From assembly GCF_020731355.1 (NCBI RefSeq), contig NZ_JAJFZK010000015.1, positions 1-64,000 on the forward strand: 64,000 bases of DNA, read 5' to 3'. Within the stretch, counting starts at the first letter, position 1. Each line of letters starts with the position of its first letter. The notes beneath the pieces were generated by a model. That model was not told the DNA's origin. It worked only from the letters and a program-made list of their open reading frames with translations, and did no database searches. The translations under genes and the position numbers were made by a program. This DNA comes from Bacillus sp. REN16. GTDB taxonomy: Bacteria > Bacillota > Bacilli > Bacillales > Bacillaceae_L. Below are positions 6,278-55,831 of the stretch, in pieces.

Positions 6278-6502
6278 AGAGGTATACATCAATAGTTAAC
6301 TTTATTCAGGCTTTTGCTGAATAAAGTTAAAGCCTCCGGCGGATGCCACAGATTTTCAAAGGAAACTTTTCGAGCAAAGGATCAAAGACTAAGAACGCCA
6401 TGTCCTGATGTCTTCGTCTTTGTGACCCACCTCGTGTGGGCCTAAAAAATCTGGGCGCAAATACGCCTTGGCGTATTTGATTTGGTGTATACCTCTTTTT
6501 TT
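6278..6502 (+). terminator. Probable clpC terminator split by repeat R1
   Basis: The left arm 6278-6292 (AGAGGTATACATCAA) pairs over 15 bp, with one G·T, to the right arm 6481-6496 (TTTGGTGTATACCTCT). A run of T residues reaches 6502. Without the intervening 188 bp this would be a normal intrinsic terminator with a tiny loop. The whole of R1 copy 2 occupies the loop. Whether the distant arms still terminate transcription is unknown. radA follows with its own ribosome binding site 4 bases after the T run. Confidence 0.6.
6293..6480. repeat. Dispersed structured intergenic repeat R1, copy 2 (full length)
   Basis: This has the same architecture as copy 1. The left hairpin has a perfect 14-bp stem (TTAACTTTATTCAG with CTGAATAAAGTTAA), followed by AGCCTCCGGCGGATGCC. 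The central block contains AAAGACTAAGAACGCC and TGTGACCCACCTCGTGTGGG. The right hairpin is a perfect 10-bp stem, CAAATACGCC with GGCGTATTTG. Loop and stem bases differ from copy 1 but pairing is kept, which argues that the structure matters. Confidence 0.85.
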
Positions 6503-8170: not shown

Positions 8171-9262
8171 ATGTTAAAACGTATTGTGCAGCTCTTTTTT
8201 CTAATTGTCGGAGGTATGCTTGGAATTGTCTATCTGCCAGATTTATTAGGGCTGTTAAATATCGACAATATTCCATATCTAAATAATTCTTATACGCTTG
8301 CGATCTTAGGTGCTATTATATTATTTATTGTTACTTTTTGGTTAGTAGATTATATCGTAGGTTTAATTAAATGGCTTGAAGAGTCATTGATCAAAGCTCC
8401 TGTTACAGATGTTTTATTTGGAAGCTTAGGTTTGATTTCGGGATTAATTGTTGCGTTTTTAATTGTGATTCCATTAGACCGTATTTCATTTTCAGTTGTA
8501 AATACAGTGCTTCCTATTTTCATTACCCTGCTTTTAGGATACTTAGGTTTCCAAGTTGGTTTTAAAAAGCGGGATGAGCTTGTGAACTTATTCTCTATTA
8601 ACCGCGCTGGTAAGAAAAAGAGCTTGGAGGAAGAAGAAGTAAACCAACAAGCGAAAAAACTGAAAATCTTAGATACAAGTGTTATTATTGATGGACGTAT
8701 TGCGGATATATGCCAAACCGGGTTTCTTGAAGGAATCATTGTCATTCCTCGGTTTGTGCTAGAGGAGCTTCAGCATATAGCTGATTCTTCAGATGTGTTA
8801 AAGCGAAACCGCGGTAGAAGAGGTCTAGATATTTTAAATCGAATTCAAAAAGAACTGTCAATCAAGGTTGAAATCTACGAAGGTGATTTTGACGATATTC
8901 AAGAGGTTGATAGTAAGTTAGTAAAACTTGCAAAATTAACGATGGGTGTAGTTGTGACAAATGACTTTAACCTGAACAAAGTGTGTGAGCTGCAAAATGT
9001 GCCAGTGTTGAATATTAATGATCTTGCAAATGCAGTAAAACCGGTGGTATTACCTGGTGAAGAGTTAAGCGTTCAAGTCATTAAGGATGGAAAAGAGCAT
9101 AATCAAGGTGTCGCATATTTAGATGATGGTACGATGATTGTTGTCGAAGAAGGTCGTGACTATATTGGAAAACACATTGATGTTCTTGTAACGAGTGTTT
9201 TACAAACATCGGCGGGCCGAATGATATTTGCGAAGCCAAAATTACTTGAGAAAGCATTATAA
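8171..9262 (+). CDS. yacL: YacL, PIN and TRAM domain membrane protein
   Basis: The 363-residue protein has about four transmembrane segments in the first 130 residues. A PIN nuclease-like domain follows ([14 protein letters not shown] near residue 160, then further acidic residues and [11 protein letters not shown]), with a C-terminal TRAM domain (about residues 290-350) suggesting RNA binding. The combination is typical of YacL. Its exact function is not established; a membrane-anchored ribonuclease is a reasonable inference from the domains. The ATG follows GGAGGAGGTG. It lies 12 bases before ispD, with which it is probably co-transcribed. Confidence 0.9.
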
Positions 9263-12093: not shown

Positions 12094-12157
12094 CATCTGG
12101 CTGAAAATGTAATATAGTATAGTTAATAAAAACGATTATGTTAAAGTGTTGATAAGG

Positions 12158-12420
12158 AGAGTAAATAAGTGATAGACCTTAAAGTATTTGTGTGTGTCGC
12201 AAATACGAGCAGAGAGAACCATCACCGGCTGAAAGTGGTTTAAGGGAAATACTTATTGAAATGCACCTTTGAGCCTTTTATCGAACCAATTAATGAAGTA
12301 GATAAAAGCGGCGTCTCACCGTTAAGAGATTAAGTTGAGGTAACGGACTTTTCATTACCTAAACAGAGTGGAACCGCGCGAACGAAGCGTCTCTGTGTTT
12401 ATACACAGGGGCGCTTTTTG
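12158..12420 (+). promoter_or_regulatory. Cysteine T-box riboswitch controlling cysE-cysS
   Basis: Stem I features are present: AGAGAG, then GGCTGAAAGTGG, then the specifier segment GAAATGCACCTTTGAG, in which TGC (12262-12264) reads as a cysteine codon. The T-box core AGTGGAACCGCG is at 12367-12378. The terminator is a 12-bp stem, AGCGTCTCTGTG with CACAGGGGCGCT (12386-12415), followed by T residues to 12419. Uncharged tRNA-Cys should stabilise the antiterminator. The A after TGG is consistent with the U73 discriminator of tRNA-Cys. Confidence 0.95.
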
Positions 12421-19669: not shown

Positions 19670-19699
19670 AAATTTTGTTGTTAACAAATGAATAGCATT

Positions 19700-19806
19700 T
19701 GTACCGTAGACAGTAGGTGCTTTTTAAAAGCTTAATTTCCTGCCGAGGTGTAGTATATAAACTAAGATCTTACTACCTCTATGTCTGCAAGGCATAGAGG
19801 TTTTTT
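19700..19806 (+). promoter_or_regulatory. L10 leader with transcription attenuator
   Basis: The non-coding leader between rplA and rplJ matches the position and form of the Firmicutes L10 leader, an RNA bound by the L10(L7/L12)4 complex. Its end is an intrinsic terminator, ACCTCTATG with CATAGAGGT (19775-19801), plus a T run to 19806. Binding of excess L10 complex is expected to favour termination. The 5' boundary is approximate. Confidence 0.8.
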
Positions 19807-19888
19807 AATCTAGAGTTGTCCATTATGGACAACGACAAACACCGAACGGTTTCAAGTGTCTGAAATTACTCACAGGAGGTGTAGAAGA

Positions 19889-20920: not shown

Positions 20921-21526
20921 ATGGCTGAACATTACTACACTAGCAAACCCACGGTAGCCAGTAATCAAAAAACATGGACCTTTGTTTTAAAAGGGAATTC
21001 GCTTTCTTTTACAAGCGACAGCGGTGTTTTTTCAAAAAACGAGGTCGACTTTGGATCAAGATTACTAGTAGAAGAATTTCGTGCTCCTGAAGTTACAGGT
21101 CCATTTTTAGATGTTGGGTGTGGGTATGGTCCAATTGGCCTTGCGCTAGCGAAAGTATATAATGATCGTTCTATTGAAATGATTGATGTCAACGAGCGTG
21201 CGATTGAGCTTTCCAAGAAAAACGCAGAAGTGAATAAAATCAGTAATGTAGACATTCATCAAAGTGATTTGTTTTCAAATGTAGAAAATCGAGGTTTTGC
21301 TGCGATTATCTCTAATCCGCCAATTCGTGCAGGGAAGAAGGTAGTCCACCAGATTTTAGAAGAGAGTTATCGGTATTTAGTGCCTGGGGGAGAGCTTTGG
21401 GTTGTGATCCAAAAGAAACAAGGGGCTCCATCTGCAATTGAGAAGCTAGAATCGGTTTTTGAAAAAGTGGAAATTGTCGAAAGAAAAAAAGGCTATCATA
21501 TTATTAAAGCCGTAAGAACTTTATAA
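20921..21526 (+). CDS. RsmC-like class I SAM-dependent methyltransferase (YbxB)
   Basis: This 201-residue protein is the YbxB-type methyltransferase found between rplL and rpoB in Bacillus. It has the SAM motif LDVGCGYGPIG near residue 63 and the catalytic NPPIRAGK near residue 128, typical of RsmC-like enzymes that methylate the N2 of guanine in RNA. The exact target has not been inferred from sequence. The stop codon is fused to a fragment of repeat R1. Confidence 0.88.
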   Translation: MAEHYYTSKPTVASNQKTWTFVLKGNSLSFTSDSGVFSKNEVDFGSRLLVEEFRAPEVTGPFLDVGCGYGPIGLALAKVYNDRSIEMIDVNERAIELSKKNAEVNKISNVDIHQSDLFSNVENRGFAAIISNPPIRAGKKVVHQILEESYRYLVPGGELWVVIQKKQGAPSAIEKLESVFEKVEIVERKKGYHIIKAVRTL

Positions 21527-21580
21527 GAACGACACGGCCTGATGTCTTGTTTTTGTGACCCGCATCGTGTGATCCAAAAA
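21523..21580. repeat. Repeat R1, central fragment
   Basis: AAGAACGACACGGCCTGATG, TTTTTGTGACC and CATCGTGTGATCC correspond to the central block of R1 copies 1 and 2. Both terminal hairpins are missing. The first bases include the stop codon of the upstream methyltransferase gene. Confidence 0.7.
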
Positions 21581-22015
21581 ATTTCCTTGACAAAAAGAAT
21601 AAGCTGTTGACTGGCCAATTCTCGTGTGGTAGCATTATATAATGCCGATATGTAATTTTTCCATGTATAACTAAAAAATTAAATATATGTATAAATATAG
21701 TATGTATGGAAAAACTAATAAAATCAATAGTTCGTTTTTGAAAGTGTGGTTTTCTTAGTAGAAACCCTTTTTCTTTTTGTCTATAAAAATGGGTGTTTTG
21801 TGGTCATAAAGCATCTCCGAAAGACGAAAAAACGAGTTCATGTAGGCTAGAAAAGTCGAAGTAATTTAAGAATTGATAGGCTGCGTTATGTGTCCTATCA
21901 TTTTGATTTGTGGTTTACAATCTTACTAATTATAAGGTATAAATTAGACTTTCATAACTAGTAAGTGTTTATAAAATAGCAAGATTAATAACGCTTGATA
22001 TGAGGGGTGAATGGG
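21581..22015 (+). promoter_or_regulatory. Long rpoB upstream leader region with hairpins
   Basis: No gene is seen in these 435 bases. A weak promoter, TTGACT (21607-21612) with TAGCAT (21630-21635), lies at the 5' side. Further in are a long-range stem TTTTTCCAT/ATGGAAAAA (about 21656-21716) and an ACCC/GGGT stem near 21764-21794. Near 21880-21905 TGATAGG pairs with CCTATCA, followed by TTTTG like a weak terminator. The last would precede the rpoB-proximal promoter at 21914. The region may hold attenuation control of the RNA polymerase genes, but this is inference. Confidence 0.4.
21914..21943 (+). promoter_or_regulatory. rpoB-proximal promoter
   Basis: TTTACA (21914-21919), an 18-base spacer and TATAAA (21938-21943) lie about 70 bases before the rpoB start. 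Confidence 0.5.
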
Positions 22016-25596: not shown

Positions 25597-25672
25597 TAAA
25601 TCAGCAGAAGTCGATACTCCTGCTGATTTACGTTAAAGCCTTTGGCGCAAATACGCCAAGGCGCATTTGATT
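25597..25672. repeat. Repeat R1, short form with internal deletion
   Basis: This rpoB-rpoC spacer element keeps both ends of R1 but lacks the middle. The left hairpin is a perfect 10-bp stem, AAATCAGCAG with CTGCTGATTT, then GTTAAAGCC, then directly the right end with arms CAAATACGCC and GGCGCATTTG. Its size and structure resemble a miniature derivative of the full element. Confidence 0.8.
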
Positions 25673-30279: not shown

Positions 30280-30750
30280 ATGCCTCGTAAAGGACCTGTC
30301 GCTAAGAGAGATGTATTACCGGATCCAATATATAATTCAAAGCTTGTAACTCGTTTAATCAACAAAATGATGGTTGATGGAAAAAGAGGTAAATCTCAAG
30401 CGATTTTATATAATGCGTTTGAATTAGTTCAACAACGTTCAGGTAAAGATGCTATGGAAGTGTTTGAACAAGCACTTAAAAACATCATGCCTGTTCTAGA
30501 AGTAAAAGCACGTCGTGTAGGTGGTGCAAACTATCAAGTTCCTATTGAAGTTCGCCCAGACCGTCGTACTACATTAGGTTTACGTTGGTTAGTAAACTAT
30601 GCTCGCCTTCGTGGAGAAAAAACGATGGAAGAGCGTTTAGCTAACGAAATTCTTGATGCAGCTAACAACTCTGGTGCATCTGTTAAGAAACGTGAAGATA
30701 CTCACAAAATGGCAGAAGCAAACAAAGCGTTTGCTCACTACCGTTGGTAA
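30280..30750 (+). CDS. rpsG: Ribosomal protein S7 (uS7)
   Basis: S7 is a primary 16S rRNA binder that nucleates assembly of the 30S head and contacts the E-site tRNA. The 156-residue length is the family norm, with [19 protein letters not shown] at the start, the beta-hairpin [18 protein letters not shown], and the end [17 protein letters not shown] precedes the ATG. Confidence 0.98.
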
Positions 30751-30752
30751 TA

Positions 30753-30805
30753 ATATAATTCAGCAACTGCTGAATTATATTATCGCCCTCGGCGATTGCC
30801 TTAGA
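30753..30805. repeat. Diverged left end of repeat R1
   Basis: AATATAATTCAG pairs with CTGAATTATATT over 12 bp around a short loop, followed by GCCCTCGGCGATTGCC. This matches the R1 left hairpin and its downstream GCCTCCGGCGGATGCC with several changes. The right end is absent. It lies in the rpsG-fusA gap, where a further 8-bp hairpin (GCTCTGTT/AACAGAGC, 30813-30837) has no T run. Confidence 0.5.
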
Positions 30806-55585: not shown

Positions 55586-55700
55586 TTCTTGTTTATACAG
55601 GGATTGGTGATGCAGAATCTATCGTCCTTTTAGAATTTTAACTTTAATCATGCAGCAATTTCCTACTTCTATATGTGGGGATGAATGCAAATAGAGTATA

Positions 55701-55831
55701 CAATTCAGTCGGGGTTCAAACTTCGCCTGAATAAAGTTAAGCCTCCGGCGGATGCCACAGATTTTCAAAGGTAATTTTTCGAGCAAGCACGAAAAAATCT
55801 GGGCACAAATACGCCAAGGCGCATTTGATTA
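55701..55831. repeat. Repeat R1, form with partial central deletion
   Basis: The left hairpin ATTCAGTCGGGGTT pairs with AACTTCGCCTGAAT (13 of 14 positions including two G·T), then AAGTTAAGCCTCCGGCGG and ATGCCACAGATTTTCAAAGG as in copy 2. The central block is missing, and the right hairpin arms CAAATACGCC and GGCGCATTTG end the element just before the fni ribosome binding site. The remaining 115 bases between the synthase-like gene and this repeat hold nothing recognisable. Confidence 0.8.

Follow-up and report, generated by a model that had tools for sequence, protein, structure and literature searches.

R1, a dispersed, hairpin-ended mobile element of Bacillales chromosomes that carries the Bacillaceae-1 RNA in its long forms

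R1 copies in the clpC-radA region and the surrounding window

The intergenic region between clpC and radA in the analyzed 64-kb stretch of DNA (referred to as the window) contains a long copy of a structured repeat, R1, at positions 6296-6482 of the forward strand, on which the other R1 elements and modules of the window are also located. The left hairpin of this copy is formed by a left arm at 6296-6309 and a right arm at 6317-6331, and is followed by a core starting at 6332, which includes a Bacillaceae-1 module (RF01690; 6373-6440; 48.7 bits, gathering cut-off 35), and by a right hairpin at 6458-6479 and the bases ATT. The whole copy is enclosed in the loop of the clpC terminator hairpin (6278-6502), whose stem consists of AGAGGTATACA (6278-6288) and TGTATACCTCT (6486-6496) and is followed by a T-run. 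In G001-G006 and G008, the seven sibling genomes compared, this terminator stem-loop is unsplit and R1 is absent, so that only the genome of the window (G000) holds R1 inside the loop. The splitting of the terminator loop had been missed by the initial annotation of R1, as had the identity of the center of R1 with Bacillaceae-1 and the longer left domain of the fullest copies. In G002-G006 the clpC terminator is followed by another intergenic sequence of approximately 120 nt (around AGCTC..GGCGCCATCGGCTCGAG), which is similar in these five genomes and missing from G000, G001, and G008.

A profile built from 29 full R1 copies was run over the window and matched two long cores (1996-2144 and 6332-6481), one short core (55741-55829), and two incomplete stretches, namely 25634-25671, where a minimal copy has its right end, and 21524-21583, which corresponds to part of the central module. 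The initial annotation had listed six copies of one architecture, and the observation is real but was confirmed only in part. The elements it had placed at 1951-2143 and 6293-6480 are full copies; the former is located between ctsR and mcsA (1952-2144), contains a Bacillaceae-1 module at 2036-2104 (42.9 bits), and is absent from G001, G003, G004, and G005, with a copy in G002 and a remnant in G006. The element at 25597-25672 is a minimal copy between rpoB and rpoC (25597-25671) that consists of the left hairpin and the right hairpin (25648-25669) and is absent from G001, G004, and G005. The one at 55701-55831 is a short copy, but it starts near 55636: its outer left arm, TTTTAACTTTAATC, which pairs with CTGAATAAAGTTAA, lies approximately 65 nt upstream of the start assigned before, and the arm recognized at that time is an inner part. 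This copy (55636-55829) has a full left domain (55636-55740) in front of its core (55741-55829) and is absent in the six siblings aligned. The remaining two elements had to be reassigned. The sequence at 21523-21580 is not R1, as it has neither end and resembles the central module only (21524-21583): nhmmer aligned it to the core profile with E 1.6e-8, and Rfam gave nothing at E ≤ 1. The sequence at 30753-30805 is a remnant of the left hairpin alone (30750-30783), which is situated between rpsG and fusA with its first base inside the rpsG stop codon and occupies the same place in five of the eight genomes compared (found in G002, G004, G005, and G006; absent from G001 and G003). The window also contains a T-box leader and a ribosomal protein L10 leader (12140-12397 and 19686-19815), which are expected for this region.

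Architecture and predicted fold

R1 is composed, in this order, of a left hairpin domain (approximately 40 nt, and approximately 105 nt in the fullest copies), a GCC mini-hairpin, a long helix (P2), and the right hairpin. In 120 of the 201 copies, the left 5' arm is displaced upstream by more than 75 nt, giving a left domain of approximately 105 nt; among the 60 of these cases that were viewed individually, a few (e.g., L278 and L289) are alignment errors. The simple left hairpins look like deletion forms. The modular organization proposed for R1, including deletion derivatives that keep both ends, was thus borne out. The consensus fold of 30 long cores comprises the GCC mini-hairpin, P2 (GCC-A-CAG or CGA with its partner), an inner helix of AAAGAC with GTCTTT, several more short hairpins, and the hairpin of the right end. 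Both sides have changed in seven of the 33 predicted pairs, and covariation is seen, among others, at AU17/GC13 and GC16/AU12 of P2 and at AU25/GC5 of the inner helix. Short copies are devoid of the inner module, and their P2 is closed by a CGAGC..GCTCG tip. The fold of copy 2 (195 nt) has a predicted energy of -62.5 kcal/mol compared to a mean of -44.7 for shuffled sequences (z -4.8; none of 200 shuffles as low). Hairpins are present near both ends of R1, but neither stem is an inverted copy of the other (left, TTAACTTTATTCAG; right, CAAATACGCC). The foot of the right hairpin is preceded by CAAA on its 5' side and followed by TTTG. At L006 (contig C16 of G000, approximately 8897-9227), one short and one long copy are arranged in tandem with less than 100 nt between them, and left hairpins alone, without remaining R1 sequence, were observed just 5' of terminator-like sequence at L198:2117-2158 and L043.

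The Bacillaceae-1 module

Long R1 copies hold the Rfam Bacillaceae-1 RNA (RF01690) in the tip of P2. Within R1, only this inner module belongs to the family, which is listed in PMC2864571; both long copies in the window exceed the gathering cut-off, and no RF01690 match was obtained for the short copies, the minimal copy, or the fragment at 21524-21583. RF01690 spans 67 nt, whereas R1 additionally comprises the left domain, P2, and the two ends, and has short forms without the module. In the part of PMC2864571 considered, Bacillaceae-1 is not described as mobile or as part of a bigger repeat. Bacillaceae-1, a dispersed repeat in its own right, also occurs alone, and eight such solo copies that were tested scored 61-81 bits in Rfam. 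With a module profile made from only 10 of 72 long copies, 49 non-redundant matches were found beyond the long R1 copies already listed. Of these matches, 36 have no left block of R1 in their vicinity; some of the 36 are R1 copies that lie at the edge of a locus or have a degraded left side (e.g., L284, L146, L311), and some are next to parts of R1 arranged in a different order (L071, L206, L253, L278). We infer that Bacillaceae-1 became nested in the tip of P2 and thereby gave rise to long R1; the alternative is the reverse process, in which the short forms would result from loss of the module.

Solo copies were observed inside tnpB genes of G023 (L324:1799-1865 and L337:183-249; uninterrupted relatives L325, L329, and L330) and between the 16S and 23S rRNA genes of G006 (L319:1509-1575). 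The outer stems of solo copies (L055, L056, L061, L072, L319, and others) vary yet remain complementary (e.g., GTCGAC, CGAAGGC, GTCGGC), which is the same pattern as in the left hairpin of R1.

Genomic distribution and orientation

The genome of the window (4.64 Mb in 73 contigs) yielded 52 BLAST pieces of R1 and at least 50 covariance-model matches at E ≤ 0.001, and its eight siblings contain 33-51 covariance-model matches each. Elsewhere in the order the distribution is patchy: R1 matches were detected in 20 of 60 genomes including G000, namely in all nine members of the genus and in 11 of the 51 others (1-35 matches), by a scan with stricter filters in which weak matches are lost. The 80 matching stretches listed, of at least 106 in a named scan, are from Siminovitchia, Fredinandcohnia, Lysinibacillus, Ureibacillus, Psychrobacillus, Sporosarcina, and others; among these listed matches, the single ones in Lachnospiraceae and Arthrobacter may be due to chance. 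The search with a covariance model through the genome and its relatives that had been suggested for R1 thus retrieved matches across the genome and the genus, with strong covariation. No match was obtained in plasmid or phage records and no exact-pattern match in viral contigs. A literature search with subscription papers mostly outside its scope, and hence a weak negative, revealed no published description of R1.

The location first described for R1, just downstream of a stop codon and upstream of a ribosome binding site, broadly holds. When ORFs were called by a simple procedure, the closest one downstream was co-oriented with R1 in 36 of 42 cases in G000 (43 rows, one without ORF) and in 19 of 25 copies examined in G006. 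In the latter genome, 19 of 25 copies are also co-directional with replication if the assumed origin is correct, a count that bears on the lagging-strand movement expected of IS200/IS605 ends-only elements but is confounded with gene direction.

Filled and empty sites among sibling genomes

R1-containing and R1-free alleles alternate among the siblings at ctsR-mcsA, rpoB-rpoC, s9, s17 (where the left junction was viewed), s50, and s55. Eleven further sites of G000 were compared with five or six siblings each; a twelfth locus of the flank query (L003) is outside this set because its left flank is not conserved. Some empty sites are not clean, as the sibling flanks differ at L004 and L005, L026 has other sequence or a decayed copy in the siblings, and L009 contains other DNA in G005. 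No target duplication was seen at the compared sites, where the junctions are ambiguous by a few bases due to the AT-rich flanks and a divergence of the siblings of 7-16% at rpoB. Insertion takes place next to short sites rich in T and A, in many cases TTTAA or a terminator T-run, and R1 mostly lies between genes in sense direction. The same spot has been hit repeatedly at the T-run of L013 (filled in G000 and G005, empty in G004) and at L010 (filled in G000 and the G004/G005 lineage, empty in G001-G003), and L014 holds a bare left hairpin in G004 and G005. These comparisons show that R1 is a dispersed, structured mobile element that is site-selective, hairpin-ended, and modular. They also uphold two earlier expectations, since sibling alleles without R1 demonstrate its mobility and the empty sites confirm that its boundaries are conserved.

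Host bases opposite the internal arm of the left hairpin

At sites with empty alleles in siblings, the outer bases of the left 5' arm are often pre-existing host DNA. At L016, the outer bases TTTAC (internal arm GTAAA) are found in six of six siblings without R1, at L013 CTTTT (TAAAG) in five of five, at L014 CTTTTT (TTAAA) in two of three, and at L020 GCAT (TTATG) in three of five. TTTAA at L026 (TTAAA) is present in four of six siblings, two of them with decayed copies, and at L027 the outer bases are the stop codon TAA (TTAGA), which occurs in all six siblings and is preceded by C in G001 and G004. TATAA at s9 (TTATT) is shared by at least five of seven siblings, and GTATAA at s50 (TTATA) by G001 and G002. 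A table compiled by hand contained 18 insertions at 17 sites; it excludes the rpsG-fusA remnant, a gapped G005 copy at L013, and clpC-radA, where the loop is variable and the original target unknown. In this dataset, target and internal arm pair at 75 of 90 positions compared to 58.4 for shuffled arms (p 1e-5), and at 39 of 54 when only positions 3-5 are considered (27.9 for shuffled arms, p 1.4e-4).

The same pairing was apparent in 201 copies, among which some are shifted in register and some share common descent. Their outward positions pair in 853 of 1005 cases, compared to 638 after shuffling, with none of 2000 shuffles as high. Arm bases that differ from TTAAA pair with the opposite base in 135 of 197 cases, and the arm TTAAA, found in 90 copies, has exactly TTTAA opposite in 62 of them. 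The left stem had been said to pair in every copy; it is indeed strongly paired, but outward positions 1-5 pair in 191, 167, 183, 171, and 141 of the 201 copies, respectively, and the rpoB-rpoC copy of G003 mispairs with the flank past 3 bp. Mispaired outer bases also occur at rpoB-rpoC in G002, at s17 in G005, and, for the fifth base, at ctsR in G002.

Near-identical copies at different sites formed 63 pairs, which differ at 45 outer left bases. The internal arm matches the difference at eight of these, and of 30 arm differences in the same pairs, eight pair in both copies, 18 in one, and four in neither. Since, in addition, nearest copies share a variant arm in only eight of 111 cases (register shifts inflate the number of variants), a stably inherited guide does not account for the data in a simple way. 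R1 might write its landing site into itself, in that the internal arm would be replaced upon insertion by a sequence complementary to the host DNA beside the left hairpin. Each copy would then carry a brief record of where it had landed, and the next target would be set anew with every move; we consider this idea unlikely, and the small number of matched differences between near-identical copies argues against rewriting in a simple form.

Covariation of the left stem and its possible causes

The left stem could be aligned in 201 of 210 copies. Relative to the commonest pair, positions 1-15 comprise 533 double-changed Watson-Crick cells, 155 cells with a wobble or A.C pair, and 49 others, these cells being counts of copies and not of events. 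At the inner positions 6-15, 91.8% of the cells (1817 of 1979) are Watson-Crick pairs, compared to 60.3% when the 3' letters are shuffled among copies. The corresponding values for the outer positions in a local alignment, 95.3% and 69.2%, are biased because such an alignment drops mismatched ends; the count of 853 of 1005 given above is free of this bias. The covariation is thus as strong as first thought, but the conclusion that compensatory changes reveal selection on a fold does not follow from it alone: at several sites the outer left-arm bases are pre-existing host DNA matched by the internal arm, so that part of the apparent compensation is tied to insertion.

Both arms diverge faster than the cores. 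Among nearest pairs of copies at different sites, the values for core, right arm, and left arm (which includes the target bases) were 0.878, 0.778, and 0.776 in 15 pairs, 0.925, 0.764, and 0.751 in 37 pairs, 0.955, 0.862, and 0.821 in 77 pairs, and 0.987, 0.937, and 0.886 in 52 pairs, with six more distant ones of the 187 pairs outside these bins. Arms that outpace the cores and yet stay paired, as in the 37 pairs above, could result from mechanical correction, in which repair templated by the hairpin, or a template switch, transfers the sequence of one arm to its partner and no selection is involved, as in Ripley-type quasi-palindrome correction. Such a process would also be in line with the large excess of double-changed pairs over intermediates (533 versus 204 cells) and with L226 and L270, whose 89-nt cores are identical while their arms differ, each arm agreeing with the local flank at the base in question. 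However, mismatches persist, including TCAAA opposite TTTAA in 12 copies, C.A at position 9 in 61 of 201 copies, and the one-sided changes kept in orthologous stems of G004 and G005, and we regard arm correction as an improbable explanation. The orthologous stems in question are those at s17 and L014; the L010 stems of the two genomes differ by a T-A to A-T swap.

Another source of covariation would be selection on RNA, with R1 being co-transcribed and processing, stabilizing, or attenuating the transcript between genes, and mobility being incidental. The co-orientation with the downstream ORF, the strong RNA fold, and the presence of a curated RNA family in the long copies agree with such a function. 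So does the rpsG-fusA remnant, a single locus in five genomes, in which 94.7% of the cells pair, both sides have changed in four of 15 pairs, and one pair includes two G.U cells. Its covariation score was reached by none of 500 shuffles, which does not give a probability because the five sequences are related. A constraint on the fold after insertion thus also exists. As a general explanation, selection on RNA nevertheless appears unlikely: R1 is often gained and lost at the same sites among siblings, the s17 and L014 stems in the sister genomes G004 and G005 differ by one-sided changes that break pairing, and the wobble types do not favor the sense strand (54 A.C versus 39 G.T, one lineage-fixed position excluded).

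Proposed mode of mobility and comparison with known elements

Our leading interpretation, held tentatively at somewhat less than even confidence, is that R1 is a non-autonomous element of Bacillales chromosomes that an enzyme provided in trans mobilizes in the form of folded single-stranded DNA. This enzyme would bind the end hairpins, and the flanking target (TTTAA) may pair with the short internal TTAAA on the 3' side of the left hairpin and thereby help to set the site, similar to the guide and cleavage tetranucleotides of IS200/IS605 elements. Target reprogramming has reportedly been achieved with IS608. Copies with mispaired hairpins would transpose poorly, which could keep the stems paired among the successful copies, and after insertion the folded transcript may be retained at some loci for local use. 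This interpretation is supported by the alternation of filled and empty sites without duplication, by a fit between target and arm that exceeds that of shuffled arms, by repeated insertion at one spot, and by the absence of R1 from the plasmid and phage records searched. It is weakened by the failure to find a mobilizer, by the location of the left guide 3' of the hairpin, by the low counts for inherited guides (8/45 and 8/111), by the confounding of co-orientation with replication direction, and by wobble counts that do not single out one folding strand.

Y1 transposases of the IS200/IS605 type were considered as partner and rejected. PF01797 (Y1_Tnp; REP-type and IS-type proteins counted together) is present in 52 of 60 genomes and does not track R1, occurring in 17 of the 20 R1-containing genomes and in 35 of the 40 that lack R1, and being absent in the R1-rich G003 and G008; no R1 ends were detected around Y1 genes at three loci of the genus. 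TnpB is absent from G000, G002, G006, and G007. The right ends of tnpB elements were likewise dismissed as source of the left domain, with no match there in 14 loci; one weak nhmmer match (E 0.038) was located 5' of a tnpA in G001. A search for a large autonomous R1 detected no left end with a right end at a distance of 200-6000 nt, a weak negative because the loci examined mostly extend over only 3-8 kb.

According to the sections of PMC7290912 and PMC6006769 used here, R1 resembles the ends-only elements of IS200/IS605 (PATEs) and REP sequences in that it has hairpin ends, shows no target duplication at the compared sites within a few ambiguous bases, and is non-coding, and in that the target adjoins the left end and the flank is complementary to a short internal sequence. 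Unlike the ends-only elements, R1 has a variable target and no partner transposase that could be found, and it carries a structured RNA module. The guide published for IS200/IS605 is located 5' of the hairpin foot (PMC6006769, in the part considered); the right end of R1 fits this arrangement with CAAA before and TTTG after the hairpin, whereas the complementary stretch at the left end is 3' of the hairpin and does not fit. R1 works like an IS200/IS605 ends-only element but is not classed as one, because two tested features of these elements were not found, namely a guide on the 5' side of the hairpin foot at both ends and an autonomous copy that combines a Y1 gene with R1-like ends. The R1 target varies around TTTAA, with no duplication seen and junctions ambiguous by a few bases. 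A REP element is a palindrome of 20-40 bp with a GTAG-type tag and a TnpA-REP, and R1 is longer. That R1 is a conventional MITE, moved by a DDE transposase, is highly improbable: it is small, non-coding, dispersed, highly paired, and situated at AT-rich sites, but the terminal inverted repeats and short target duplication of classical MITEs were not found, since the left and right stems are not mutual inverted copies and no duplication was seen at the compared sites within a few ambiguous bases.

If transfer as folded single-stranded DNA is the correct interpretation, an orphan Rfam family would have found its place, with Bacillaceae-1 being a mobile repeat as well as a passenger of a larger one. 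R1, with its many insertions and empty sites in siblings, would also offer a natural test system for the origin of hairpin covariation, in which selection on RNA, selection for transposition, and mechanical arm correction have to be separated. This bears on RNA searches that treat covariation as proof of a functional RNA.

Two other groups of repeats are similar to R1 in part. The bcr1 and other repeats of the Bacillus cereus group are, in the portion of PMC6542083 used here, also dispersed chromosomal repeats of 100-400 bp with TTTAT end motifs, and their mechanism is given as unknown. bcr1, which was compared by description only, is reported there on plasmids too, whereas R1 was found on no plasmid record. 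BOX of Streptococcus pneumoniae (PMC3049150) shares with R1 a modular composition, a variable middle, and a structure if transcribed, but belongs to another taxon, has other modules, and, in the part of that source considered, is not described with a target-matched hairpin arm. In the right hairpin of R1, the sixth pair (e.g., of the hairpin at 25648-25669) is most commonly A.C (130 of 205 hairpins), with A-T in 52, and this conserved mispair may be a recognition feature.
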